Made by a program: the position numbers and the translations under genes | Part shown: piece by piece, positions 11,863-17,245 of the stretch | How positions within the stretch are numbered: the stretch's first letter is position 1 | Layout: each line of letters starts with the position of its first letter | Source: Planctomycetales bacterium | GTDB lineage: Bacteria; Planctomycetota; Planctomycetia; Isosphaerales; Isosphaeraceae | NCBI GenBank assembly: GCA_027449865.1 | Contig: DAIDKV010000162.1 | Span: 1 to 64,000 of the forward strand | Length of the DNA: 64,000 bases | Direction: 5' to 3' | The notes under the pieces: model-generated | Told to the model about the DNA's origin: nothing | Databases searched by the model: none | What the model saw: only the letters and a program-made list of their open reading frames with translations

Positions 11863-14800
11863 ATGGCGACGGCGACCGATGACGCGATCCGTCCACTACC
11901 GCCGGCGGGAATGAAGTGGGCGCCGCTGGTCCCACTCCTGATGGCCGTTTCTTCGGGGATTCTCGTCGATCGATTCATTGATCCCTGGGAGACGATGACC
12001 TGGGCCGCGTTGGCAATCGGTGCCGGTCTGGCCGGGATGCTGGCGACGACTCGAAGGGTCGCGGCCAACCTGGCGGTGGTCGCGGCATTCGCGGCGATCG
12101 GAGGCGGATGGCATCATCACCGATGGTCCGATCGGGCGGCCGACGACCTCGGTGAAATTGTCAGTGAGGATCCCTTACCGGCTCGCATTCGAGGAACCGT
12201 GTGGGATTTGCTGGGCACTCGCCCTGCCGATCGCGATCGTCCCGGATCCGATGGACCTCGGACCCGGTTCGTGGTCGAGATCTCCTCGTCGCACGACGGC
12301 CGGGACTGGCGGCCGGCCTCGGGTCGCGCCATCGTCGCCGCCGACGGGGATTATGTGGATCTGGCGGAAGGAGAAATGGTCGAGCTAACCGGCCGGATCT
12401 CCAGGTTGGAGGGCCCGCTCAATCCCGGCGAATTCGACTATCGTGGGTTTCTTCGAAGCCAGGGGATTTCGATCCGACTCTCGGTCATCGGCGACGGTGG
12501 CGTTCGCCCAGCGCCGGAAAGTCAGGGCCCGGGATGGCTGGGGAGGACACGCGCCTGGTGCCGCGACCGCCTCCTTCAGGGAATGGGTCCCCAGACCGGG
12601 CCGCTGGCGACGGCGCTTCTGCTCGGGCGGCGTGAGGGCGTCGATCCCGAGGTGAACGACGCCTTTGCGCGGACCGGGACGACCCACCTCCTGGCCATTT
12701 CAGGATTGCACATGCAGGCCATGGCCGCGGCTCTGGTCCTCGCCGCGCGGCTTGCGGCGATCCCAGATCGACCAGCCGCCCTTCTCATTTCTCTCTGCAC
12801 CATCGCCTACGCGGTTTTGGTGGGCCCAGCCCCATCGGTAGTGCGGTCGGCGATCATGACCGTGGCCTTTTGCCTCGCCGCGATCCTCGGGCGGATGACG
12901 ATGCCGGCGAACATCCTGGCGCTAGCGGGCCTGGGAACACTGGCCGTCAATCCGGTGGCCTTGTTCGACGTCGGCGGGCAACTCTCGTTCCTGGCCGTCG
13001 CCGCGCTGATCTGGCTGGTCCCGCCGGCCGACGAGGCGGCCCGGCACGTCTGGAGAGCGATTCGCCATCGCGTTTTCGGTCCGCGATCGCCGCTGGATGA
13101 TCTCGAGCGCACCTTCGAGGCGGTCTGGAAGAAGGAGTTGCGGAAGGCAGGTGCCTGGCTGCTTTCCGGAATTCTCGCCTCGACAGTGGTTTTCCTGGCC
13201 GCGCTTCCGATCGTGGCGCTTCGGTTCCACATCGTCTCACCGATTGGAATCCTGCTCAACATTCCCCTGATCGCGATCACGACCGTGGCCATGCTGCTGG
13301 GGGGGATCGGACTGCTGCTCTCGGCGATCTGGGAACCGATGGGGATGCCCATGGCAAGAGGGGCCGGCGTGCTGCTCGATCTCACGCGAAGGATCGTCGT
13401 CTGGGGCGTCGAACAGTCGTGGGGCCACTGGTTTTCGGCCGGACCTGGCTGGCGATGGATTCTTATTTTCTACGTGGCGCTTGGAGTGGCCGCCGTCGCC
13501 GAGACAGCCTCGCGCCGACGTCGGCGGGCGCTGGAACGGCTTCCGGAGGAGGCTCGGGACGTCCCGGATCCTGGCCGATTCCGACGAAGGGGCGCCTGGA
13601 CGATGGTCGCGATCTGGTCGCTGATCGGGATGCTGATGGCGGCATTCCCGCCCCGGCCCGCGACCGCGGAGGCCGATGTGCTCGCGGTCGGTCATGGGCT
13701 GGCAGTGGCCGTGCAGGCACCCAACGGCCGGGTCCTGCTCTATGACTGTGGGCGGATGGGCGATCCAACCGTCGGACGTCGGATCGTCGCACCGGCCCTC
13801 TGGTCGCGCGGGATCGGGCGGATCGACGAGGTCGTCCTGAGCCACGCCGACCAGGACCATTTCGACGGCCTCCCTGACCTGCTAAACCGTTTCCAGGTCG
13901 GCGAGGTGCGCGTTCCGCCGGGCTTTGGCGGTCCGAGGAATCCAGCGGCCGACCGGCTGCTCGCGATGATCCAGGCGCGAGGCATCCCGGTTGTCGAAAC
14001 CGCGTCGCCCGCGTCCTGGGAGATGAGCGGTGTTCGGATGACGGTCCGTCACCCGCCGGATGGCTGGTTTCCGGACGCCTCCGACAACGCCCGAAGTCTC
14101 GTACTGGACGTCGAACAGGGCGGCCGGCATCTCCTTCTCACCGGTGACCTGGAGCAAATTGGACTGATTGAGATGATCGGAGGACCGCGGCCCGATCCCC
14201 CGATCGAGGTTCTTCTCTCGCCTCATCACGGCGGTCGATCGGCGAACCCGGCATCGCTCTACGAATGGGCAAGGCCCGCGAAGGTCGTGGTCAGTCAACG
14301 AGCCCCACGGTCCGAGACCGGTGATGCCCTCACACCTCTCGAAGAGGGTGGTCTCGACGTCCGACGAACCTGGCGCGACGGTGCGATCCGGCTTCGATGG
14401 TCCGATCACGCTATTGTCGCGACCAACTTCCTTCAACGCCCCGAGCTGACAACGGAAGTCCGGACTGGTTCTCCCGCTTTCACGCAGTGGCCGATCGGAA
14501 TGATCGGGATCTGGCCGATCGCGCGACGATTGGCCGAGGCCATGGCCGGACTCGTGGTAGGGCTACTGCTCTGGGCGGTAATGGCGATCGTGGAGTTTGG
14601 CGCCTGGACGCTGGTCGTCCATCCGACTCCTCGTCGGGAAGTACCTGACGATGTTCTCGACTCCAGGCCAATCGAGACGAAGGCGATCGATGGCGTCCGG
14701 CTCGCGGGGCGTTTTTATGGAGCGGGAGGAGAACGCGAGCCCCTCGGGATGGTACTACTCCTGCACGGCTTCGCCGATGACCCTTCAGTCTGGGAGGGCG

Positions 14801-15438
14801 AGCGAGCCTCGATCCTGAACGCCGCCGGCTGGGACGTCGCCGCGCTCGACGCGCGGGGATACGGTCAAAGCGATGGGATGTACGCATCGTTCGGTGGTCG
14901 CGAGGCAGGCGATGTCTCCGCATGGCTCGACGCGATGGACTGTCCGGGGAAGATCGTTGCGGTCTGGGGCCGATCGATGGGGGCTGCCATCACGATGCGG
15001 GCGGCGTCGGTCGATTCGAGAATCTCCGCAGTGGTCCTGGAATCACCGATGGTTGACCTCGATGCCTCGGTTGCCCGACTCCTCAGGAATCGGGGTCTGC
15101 GCCTCGCCCGCCCGATGGCCTGGCTCATCACCCGGCGCGCCGGCCGGATCGCCGGAGTCTCGCTGAGCCGTCCCCGTCCGGTCGAGGTCGCCCAGCGCGT
15201 GGGCTGTCCGACGATGTTCGTCCACGGGACCGACGACTGGCTCGTACCGAAGGAGGATGTGAGCCGCCTCGCCGAGGCGTTTCCGACGAATCCCGACCGG
15301 ATCGAGGTCCCCGGCGCCGGGCATTCGAACGTCGTGGAGGGTGGGAGTACGGAGGTCGTCGGAAGGATCGTCGCGTTCCTGAACCGGGCTCGAGAGTCGG
15401 TTGATGGGATGCCTTCGGATCTGTCGGGCGAGATGTAA
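11863..15438 (+). CDS. comEC: ComEC/Rec2-type competence protein fused to a C-terminal alpha/beta hydrolase
   Basis: 1191 residues in three parts. Residues about 1-600 are membrane helices with an OB-like DUF4131 domain (DPLPARIRGTVWDLL) and the ComEC channel core around residue 275 (TTHLLAISGLHMQAMAAALV). Residues about 600-840 are a metallo-beta-lactamase-like domain with the motif SHADQDHFDGLPDLL (HxxxDH, near 660) and LSPHHGGR. ComEC moves one DNA strand across the inner membrane and the MBL domain is thought to be a nuclease. After another membrane segment, residues about 930-1175 form an alpha/beta hydrolase: LLLHGFADD, nucleophile elbow GRSMGAA (near 1035), acid in HGTDDWLVP and base in GAGHSNV. 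Typical ComEC ends after the MBL domain, so the hydrolase is an extra module. The frame is continuous with no gap. Confidence 0.9.
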   Translation: MATATDDAIRPLPPAGMKWAPLVPLLMAVSSGILVDRFIDPWETMTWAALAIGAGLAGMLATTRRVAANLAVVAAFAAIGGGWHHHRWSDRAADDLGEIVSEDPLPARIRGTVWDLLGTRPADRDRPGSDGPRTRFVVEISSSHDGRDWRPASGRAIVAADGDYVDLAEGEMVELTGRISRLEGPLNPGEFDYRGFLRSQGISIRLSVIGDGGVRPAPESQGPGWLGRTRAWCRDRLLQGMGPQTGPLATALLLGRREGVDPEVNDAFARTGTTHLLAISGLHMQAMAAALVLAARLAAIPDRPAALLISLCTIAYAVLVGPAPSVVRSAIMTVAFCLAAILGRMTMPANILALAGLGTLAVNPVALFDVGGQLSFLAVAALIWLVPPADEAARHVWRAIRHRVFGPRSPLDDLERTFEAVWKKELRKAGAWLLSGILASTVVFLAALPIVALRFHIVSPIGILLNIPLIAITTVAMLLGGIGLLLSAIWEPMGMPMARGAGVLLDLTRRIVVWGVEQSWGHWFSAGPGWRWILIFYVALGVAAVAETASRRRRRALERLPEEARDVPDPGRFRRRGAWTMVAIWSLIGMLMAAFPPRPATAEADVLAVGHGLAVAVQAPNGRVLLYDCGRMGDPTVGRRIVAPALWSRGIGRIDEVVLSHADQDHFDGLPDLLNRFQVGEVRVPPGFGGPRNPAADRLLAMIQARGIPVVETASPASWEMSGVRMTVRHPPDGWFPDASDNARSLVLDVEQGGRHLLLTGDLEQIGLIEMIGGPRPDPPIEVLLSPHHGGRSANPASLYEWARPAKVVVSQRAPRSETGDALTPLEEGGLDVRRTWRDGAIRLRWSDHAIVATNFLQRPELTTEVRTGSPAFTQWPIGMIGIWPIARRLAEAMAGLVVGLLLWAVMAIVEFGAWTLVVHPTPRREVPDDVLDSRPIETKAIDGVRLAGRFYGAGGEREPLGMVLLLHGFADDPSVWEGERASILNAAGWDVAALDARGYGQSDGMYASFGGREAGDVSAWLDAMDCPGKIVAVWGRSMGAAITMRAASVDSRISAVVLESPMVDLDASVARLLRNRGLRLARPMAWLITRRAGRIAGVSLSRPRPVEVAQRVGCPTMFVHGTDDWLVPKEDVSRLAEAFPTNPDRIEVPGAGHSNVVEGGSTEVVGRIVAFLNRARESVDGMPSDLSGEM

Positions 15439-15586
15439 GTTTTGTGCCCCGATACTTCTTCCGGAACTTCCAAGTTCAGAGCCGGGTCGAGGCATTCGCG
15501 GCCCTCGGTGCCCGGACCGCCATCCTCCAAGATGCGGATTCAATCATCCGAACCCGGAGCAGGCAAAACGCCGTTATGCACGGGAA

Positions 15587-16021
15587 TCAATCCTCCATGT
15601 CCTCCACCGAGCGCCCGAGCCTACGGATCAGATCGGGAAGGGCCTCGTCGCCGATGTCGGACCACTGGCCAAAAATGAGGATGGTCCGTTCGACGGTCCG
15701 GAAGCAGCGGATCGTCGCCGCGTTCGTGATGTCGAGCGAGAAGAATTCGAGGTCATACCCAGTCGCGTGGTGGCCGGCGATGTCGTCCATCGCCGGGACG
15801 ACGTCGAGGTGCGGGTAATCCTCTCGCATCGCCTCCAGAACCTCATCGGCGACCTCGGCCGGGTCGGGGCCGGTCTCGTCCGTCCGAATCAGCACGAAGG
15901 CGAGGCCGCCGGGTGCCACCACCTCCACCGTCGTCGATTCGCTGTCGTCCGACTCTTCCACCGACCAGTCGGAAGGGTATGCGAATCGGACCCCATTTCC
16001 CTCGTAGATTCGGGTGATCAC
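15587..16021 (-). CDS. Conserved hypothetical protein, function unknown
   Basis: 144 residues from a GTG at 16021, chosen because GGAG lies eight bases upstream and the folded part begins at once (ITRIYEGNGVRFAYPSDW). A longer frame from ATG at 16081 adds a low-complexity Gly/Ala stretch. The pattern of strands (GVRFAYPSDWSVEE, TTVEVVAPGGLAFVLI) and a later helix resembles small PsbP/DUF1795-like folds, where YPSDW/YPxGW is common, but I cannot assign it firmly. No signal peptide. It lies convergent to comEC and divergent from trpS. Confidence 0.5.
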   Translation of the reverse strand: MITRIYEGNGVRFAYPSDWSVEESDDSESTTVEVVAPGGLAFVLIRTDETGPDPAEVADEVLEAMREDYPHLDVVPAMDDIAGHHATGYDLEFFSLDITNAATIRCFRTVERTILIFGQWSDIGDEALPDLIRRLGRSVEDMED

Positions 16022-16273
16022 CGCGACTTCTCCGCCACCGGACTGCCTAGCTTCCGCCCCTCCGCCGATTGCTCGCCGCATCGTAGCATTGGTTCGGGGA
16101 GCCTGCCAACCCAGGGCGTCGACGACCTCACGCCGACTTGGCCGCCTCCCTCGCCTCCTGGTACATTGGCTACGACCGGGGATCGCGGGACGTCCCGATC
16201 ATCCCTCTGGCGACATCCGTCGCGTCCGGTGGTTTCTCCGCCATTCGTTCCTTCCAGCCGAGTTCTTCGAACC

Positions 16274-17245
16274 ATGCGCATCCTGTCGGGAATTCAGCCT
16301 TCGGGCGCCCTGCATATCGGCAATTATTTCGGCGCGCTCCGACAGTTCATCGACCTTCAGCGCGAGAATGACGCCTATTACTTCGTCGCCAACTACCACG
16401 CGCTGACAAGCGTCCGTGACGCCGCCCAGCTTCGCGCCTATACGTTCGACGTGATGGTGACGATGCTCTCGCTGGGTCTCGATCCCGATCGAGCGACGCT
16501 CTTCGTTCAGTCCGACGTCCCCGAGACGACCGAGCTGGCCTGGCTGTTGACGACGGTTACGCCGATGGGATGGCTTCAAAAGTGCGTCAGCTACAAGGAC
16601 AAGGTCGAGCAGGGTCTCTCAGCCGAGCACGGCCTGTTCGCTTACCCGGTCCTCCAGGCCGCCGACATCCTCCTCTACGACGCTGATCTCGTTCCGGTCG
16701 GTCAGGATCAGAAGCAGCATCTGGAGATCACTCGCGATATCGCCGAGCGTTTCAATCAGGTCTTTGGCGGCGGTAAGGAGGTCTTCCGCCTGCCGAAGCC
16801 GCACATTCTGGAATCGGTCGCCGTGGTCCCAGGTCTCGACGGCCGGAAGATGTCCAAGAGCTATGGCAATGCCATTGAGATTTTCGACGAACCGGCCGCG
16901 ATCAAGAAAAAGGTCAAACGAATTGTGACCGACAGCACGCCCGTCGAGGCCCCAAAGAATCCCGAGACCGACTCGCTGTTCCACCTCTTCAAGCTCTTCG
17001 CCGCGACCGATGAACTGGCCGAGGTCGAGCGCCGATACCGAGAAGGCGGGATCGGCTACGGCGAGGTCAAAACCCGGCTGGCCGAAGCGATGATCGCCCG
17101 GTTTGCCCCGGCTCGCGAACATCGGGCGGAATGGCTGGCGCATCCCGAGCGAGTCGCCGAGGTTCGTGCCGCCGCCGCCGAGCGTGCTCGCGCCACGGCA
17201 CGACGTGTCCTCGACCGCGCCCGACAGGCCTGTGGTGTTGGGTGA
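16274..17245 (+). CDS. trpS: Tryptophanyl-tRNA synthetase
   Basis: 323 residues, the usual bacterial length. It charges tRNA-Trp in the cytoplasm. It starts MRILSGIQPSGALHIGNYFG, containing the HIGH-type motif (HIGN), and carries KMSKSYGNAIE as the KMSKS loop near residue 195. GQDQKQHLEITRDIAERFN and DADLVPVGQDQ are family signatures for the Trp-binding core. An upstream in-frame extension to 15401 exists but has no homology, so the ATG at 16274 is used. It is a single gene, followed by a small GC-rich palindrome. Confidence 0.96.
   Translation: MRILSGIQPSGALHIGNYFGALRQFIDLQRENDAYYFVANYHALTSVRDAAQLRAYTFDVMVTMLSLGLDPDRATLFVQSDVPETTELAWLLTTVTPMGWLQKCVSYKDKVEQGLSAEHGLFAYPVLQAADILLYDADLVPVGQDQKQHLEITRDIAERFNQVFGGGKEVFRLPKPHILESVAVVPGLDGRKMSKSYGNAIEIFDEPAAIKKKVKRIVTDSTPVEAPKNPETDSLFHLFKLFAATDELAEVERRYREGGIGYGEVKTRLAEAMIARFAPAREHRAEWLAHPERVAEVRAAAAERARATARRVLDRARQACGVG

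Follow-up and report, generated by a model that had tools for sequence, protein, structure and literature searches.

A ComEC DNA-uptake channel protein joined to an alpha/beta hydrolase of predicted cytoplasmic location in the Isosphaeraceae

Domain architecture of the fusion protein

The window, i.e., the whole stretch of 64,000 nucleotides that was analysed, carries a reading frame of 1191 codons uninterrupted by internal stops, in which a ComEC protein runs on into an alpha/beta hydrolase (Table 1). The Pfam domains DUF4131, Competence, Lactamase_B (residues 610–791) and Hydrolase_4/Abhydrolase_1 (residues ~959–1077) follow each other in this frame, each scoring over its curated cut-off. 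Together with the single frame and the presence of the same fusion in relatives, these domains bear out the original prediction of a ComEC fused to a full alpha/beta hydrolase. In an AlphaFold2 model of the full-length protein (from a 47-row alignment; mean pLDDT 87.7, pTM 0.74), a disordered linker and then one long helix lie between the MBL and the hydrolase domains. The extra membrane segment that had been proposed to precede the hydrolase is found here as the only hydrophobic segment of this region (residues 889–920), coinciding with the model helix, the end of which carries the motif E-[WFY]-G-A-W-x-L-[VI] (residues 911–918).

Table 1. Features of the comEC-hydrolase locus (positions in the window).
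Feature	Position	Strand	Basis
comEC-hydrolase fusion gene, 1191 aa	11863..15438	+	Single open frame; full-length matches in related genomes
DUF4131/OB-fold domain, residues 46-208	11998..12486	+	Pfam PF13567, E 1.9e-23
Competence (channel) domain, residues 252-545	12616..13497	+	Pfam PF03772, E 6e-51; sequence match to solved ComEC 9vc6, 30bt
Metallo-beta-lactamase (MBL) nuclease domain, residues 599-857	13657..14433	+	Structure match to 9ic4
Disordered linker, residues 860-882	14440..14508	+	pLDDT <50 in model
Single transmembrane helix, residues 883-918	14509..14616	+	Model, hydrophobic segment, conserved motif
Alpha/beta hydrolase domain, residues 929-1180	14647..15402	+	Pfam, triad, profile and fold matches
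Small reverse-strand protein, after the fusion	15587-16081	-	
trpS, following the small protein	15401-17245	+	

The ComEC part

The first three domains stand in the same usual order (OB/DUF4131, Competence, MBL) as in the ComEC/Rec2 proteins of Moorella glycerini and Legionella pneumophila, from which the window protein differs by the additional membrane helix and the alpha/beta hydrolase. The Competence domain PF03772 reaches 173.8 bits (cut-off 23) and the OB/DUF4131 domain 83 bits (cut-off 31.6). The match to the NCBIfam ComEC equivalog TIGR00361 amounts to 182 bits, under the cut-off of 190.05; with all three Pfam domains passing, this shortfall is a matter of a naming threshold and not a biological feature.

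In a structure comparison the MBL domain was aligned to 9ic4 over 255 residues (Z 32.9, rmsd 2.3). All metal ligands are kept in the alignment to 9ic4 (H661, D663, D665, H666, D762 and H788, aligned with H598, D600, D602, H603, D700 and H725 of M. glycerini) and they are nearly invariant across the 47-row alignment. The substrate-binding S728 of M. glycerini, in contrast, is G791 in the window ComEC. It was shown that S728A reduces the activity in M. glycerini about 3-fold, and that transformation is not abolished for the Legionella equivalent (PMC12455585). Moreover, the same genome encodes DprA, PilT and HHH (ComEA-type) proteins that score above the respective cut-offs, as well as a ComF-like protein below its cut-off, making a transformation apparatus plausible in this organism.

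The hydrolase domain

The catalytic triad consists of S1038 (codon 14974–14976), D1125 (15235–15237) and H1154 (15322–15324), and the complete motifs quoted for it in the original prediction were located at residues 1036, 1121 and 1151. None of the 29 orthologs deviates at Ser, Asp or His; the conserved domain with its invariant triad rules out that the hydrolase part is a chance open frame. The domain is modelled with a pLDDT of 92.3 as an alpha/beta hydrolase fold, with structure matches up to Z 30.6.

The nearest solved structure is Pf2001, an esterase/lipase of Pyrococcus furiosus (PDB 5g59; profile E 4e-29), which is also the top hydrolase by Foldseek and the top match by VIA-align (Z 30.6, 262 residues, rmsd 2.5) and which, as the best match in both sequence and fold, reaches into the C-terminal part of the window helix. 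For Pf2001, a preference for the C7 ester and hyperactivation by hydrophobic supports have been reported, for which it was called a lipase by its authors (PMC2967836). Its identity to the window hydrolase is 23–25%, at which the substrate preference is not transferable, and Pf2001, unlike the window hydrolase, is not known as joined to anything. The next structure matches (Z 22–27) are monoacylglycerol lipases, feruloyl esterases and the thioesterase DcsB. Among these, bacterial and human monoacylglycerol lipases (6eic, 7ozm, 3hju) share the fold with Z values of 22–25 and an identity of 22–26%, at which the substrate is likewise not transferable. Peptidases and thioesterases also share the hydrolase fold with these nearest esterases.

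All matches of the domain to NCBIfam hydrolase equivalogs are far under the cut-offs (e.g., 42 of 307 bits), and as none reaches its cut-off the assignment of a specific substrate from NCBIfam was dropped. The domain is most likely a membrane-interface carboxyl-ester hydrolase. The original prediction had also suggested the processing of something other than DNA, and in general terms this is possible and favored, the nearest structures being carboxyl-ester hydrolases.

Fused and separate forms in related genomes

Relatives were surveyed in 45 genomes of the family of the window (f1; Isosphaeraceae by named matches). At least 16 of the 45 encode ComEC and hydrolase in one frame (G000, G003, G005, G006, G011, G012, G016, G019, G021, G023, G025, G027, G029, G033, G065, G066). 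G003, a genome of the same genus, has the MBL end, the helix and the hydrolase in one frame at 79–80% identity; its ComEC is split by contig ends, the junction region itself being intact. The whole fusion lies in one frame in 14 further genomes. Thus, a missed stop near 14580–14700, for which a check of the reads had been proposed, is not indicated: the junction shows no error and is in frame in G003 and these 14 genomes. That an assembly or sequencing error joined two genes would agree with the separate adjacent genes in many relatives, but the same fusion recurs in 15 other genomes, including single- or few-contig assemblies (G016, G023, G027, G065), by which such an error is ruled out as the source of the fusion and its probability becomes negligible.

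In a 17th genome, G028, ComEC runs into the same helix and the contig then ends. The terminus of this contig (L048) reads AGATCGG, which introduces a spurious stop into the frame of ComEC and hydrolase and which we take to resemble the start of an Illumina adapter. For two genomes of the genus of the window, G002 (L034) and G004 (L035), the contigs break inside the MBL domain (query positions 827 and 813) and no hydrolase ortholog was found.

In 12 genomes the hydrolase has a gene of its own, 0–4.6 kb downstream of comEC and in the same orientation. It is the next gene in eight of them (G018, G024, G032, G034, G060–G063), and in six of these eight the end of comEC and the beginning of the hydrolase gene share the 4 bp ATGA; the two genes also overlap in G062, and in G063 the hydrolase starts 7 bases past the start of the comEC stop codon. 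In G022, G030, G036 and G013 the distance to comEC is 1.2, 2.4, 3.4 and 4.6 kb, respectively. The original prediction had considered close homologues in which the two parts are separate and unlinked: separate they are in these 12 relatives, but always linked. Named records of the split form are Singulisphaera acidiphila DSM 18658, Singulisphaera sp. GP187, Paludisphaera soli and Aquisphaera insulae, and cultured relatives have the split form; the fused forms that carry names in the same scan are metagenome assemblies.

At the junction of the fused G005 protein (L056), a Met and the sequence MTWLIA are kept just ahead of the helix, resembling the starts of free-standing hydrolases. A shorter hydrolase, started internally, might also be made from this fusion.

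Side of the membrane

For ComEC, the OB domain is predicted to be periplasmic, and the MBL domain lies at the channel entrance (PMC12455585). A single helix following a periplasmic MBL domain, in combination with the positive charges flanking it, argues for a location of the fused hydrolase on the cytoplasmic side. Counted as K+R, the 13 free-standing orthologs have 5 positive charges before and 26 after the helix, and the 22 distant free-standing paralogs have 79 before and 55 after; according to the positive-inside rule the former would face the cytoplasm and most of the latter the outside. The 16 fused proteins show a weak, mixed bias (26 before, 34 after). The most likely prediction therefore places the hydrolase at the cytoplasmic face, behind the pore and at the exit of the channel for single-stranded DNA, in an orientation predicted to be opposite to that of the free-standing paralogs.

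Alternatively, the linker might re-enter the membrane, or the helix might not cross it fully, leaving a periplasmic enzyme beside the MBL domain that would modify the envelope or remove acyl groups at the uptake site. The mixed charges of the fused proteins and the charge pattern of the distant paralogs, which suggests that these face outward, are in line with such an arrangement, which we nevertheless judge improbable, as there is one hydrophobic segment and one model helix and the free-standing orthologs point inward. The original suggestion that the envelope is modified locally where DNA is taken up loses weight, since the single helix and the charges predict the cytoplasmic side, i.e., the opposite.

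Distribution and evolutionary history

A profile of helix and hydrolase retrieved 29 genomes with at least 313 bits, all of family f1, the next best match having 154 bits. Nearly all 29 orthologs retain E-[WFY]-G-A-W-x-L in the helix, or a motif very similar to it, and 28 of the 29 are located in or just downstream of comEC. These are 28 of 28 testable cases, as the 29th (G014) lies at the edge of its contig and was excluded from the linkage count. An apparent ComEC remnant before the G014 hydrolase was not confirmed on translation, and a ComEC relic beside the distant hydrolase of G036 was looked for and not found. Outside of the family, this hydrolase was found in none of the genomes covered (392 from the phylum, 198 from the class); relatives there have ComEC without it. 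A viral-contig scan for a lateral or phage origin of the hydrolase found no relative.

In four genomes of the family (G008, G015, G017 and G020) the 3' end of comEC is complete and the search for the hydrolase was negative, for G015 over 0.6 kb of downstream contig. In G008, G017 and G020 the next genes are those of the window, the small reverse-strand protein and then trpS, and the hydrolase was therefore either cleanly lost or never there. With the gene order after the fusion being the same in hydrolase-less relatives, the locus is a clean presence/absence site. As these four genomes keep comEC, the hydrolase is dispensable and DNA uptake does not need it.

Fused and separate states require at least five changes on the ComEC tree, and five also on the hydrolase tree. 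Because the deepest hydrolase-bearing lineages are fused (G023; the g9 genus; G021 with G016), parsimony favors an old fusion with about five later splits. The trees fit best with a fusion near or at the root of the family, after which the two parts became separate genes about five times and the hydrolase was lost several times. Support is low for several of the deep branches, and an old neighbor gene that was fused repeatedly might be an alternative history. The hydrolase and ComEC trees agree on most well-supported groups, as would result from joint inheritance. A comparison of the window with G003 gives a dN/dS of about 0.36–0.41 for the hydrolase and 0.12 for the ComEC channel part; both values are rough, as dS is not the same in the two G003 contigs, which may be from different strains. 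On this rough estimate the hydrolase is under purifying selection, with a weaker constraint than ComEC.

The hydrolase might be a passenger, i.e., a membrane esterase with a housekeeping substrate of its own, the chance join of which to the upstream comEC was tolerated and which plays no role in uptake. The weaker constraint, the repeated splits and the repeated losses of the hydrolase while comEC was kept all speak for this explanation, which appears quite possible, if short of probable. However, the ortholog is never away from comEC in 28 of 28 testable genomes, and the topology signal of its helix is inverted compared to the free paralogs, as would be needed next to ComEC.

Prior record and further ComEC fusions

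The pairing is already on record: a survey of Competence-domain proteins from 2018 (Pimentel and Zhang) has Abhydrolase_5 and Abhydrolase_6 among the rare extra domains, the same kind of combination as in the window protein (PMC6299819). The passages that name the pairing give it no species, linkage, topology or function. A text search of the literature retrieved no other paper naming ComEC and Abhydrolase together. As the domain pairing was listed before, the surprise is moderate; added here is that the combination is confined to one family, that its split form stays linked, that it went through splits and losses, that the triad is intact, which protein is nearest to the hydrolase and that the latter is predicted to be cytoplasmic.

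Further extensions of ComEC were observed. In G258, of another planctomycete family (L084:2508-5807, minus strand), ComEC is followed in the same frame by a DUF92 integral membrane domain (residues 855–1088, Pfam E 2.6e-40), a different C-terminal fusion. In G100 (L081:3394-7860, minus strand), ComEC belongs to a frame of 1489 codons that continues, after a signal-like segment, into an unrelated esterase-type domain, for which PF00756 is just under its cut-off and LC-Est1C is matched in the PDB (E 8e-10); this may be an independent hydrolase fusion, seen in one genome only. A long open frame after ComEC in G307 gives an arginine-rich translation, has no further Pfam domain and is probably not coding.

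Proposed function

The gene encodes a ComEC of four parts, in which the OB domain, the channel and the MBL nuclease are followed by the helix with the alpha/beta hydrolase. The hydrolase would be active, of the Pf2001/monoacylglycerol-lipase type, and would work at the membrane interface. It would be tethered by the pore, where an inner-leaflet ester or lipid or a small acyl ester might be its substrate. We infer a role in DNA uptake, which would be that of an accessory and not a part of DNA translocation itself. The specific claim that in the four-domain ComEC of the Isosphaeraceae an inverted serine esterase of the cytoplasmic face takes part in DNA uptake at the channel exit, for example through changes to the inner-leaflet lipid near the pore or the removal of a pore-controlling acyl group, is rather doubtful in our estimate.

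ComEC is the channel that is said to be required by all competent bacteria, and descriptions of it usually give it no more than three domains. The broader reading, for which we see about an even chance, is that the Isosphaeraceae hydrolase would be an old fourth domain of ComEC, acting as an active interfacial esterase at the cytosolic mouth of the channel and as an accessory to DNA uptake.
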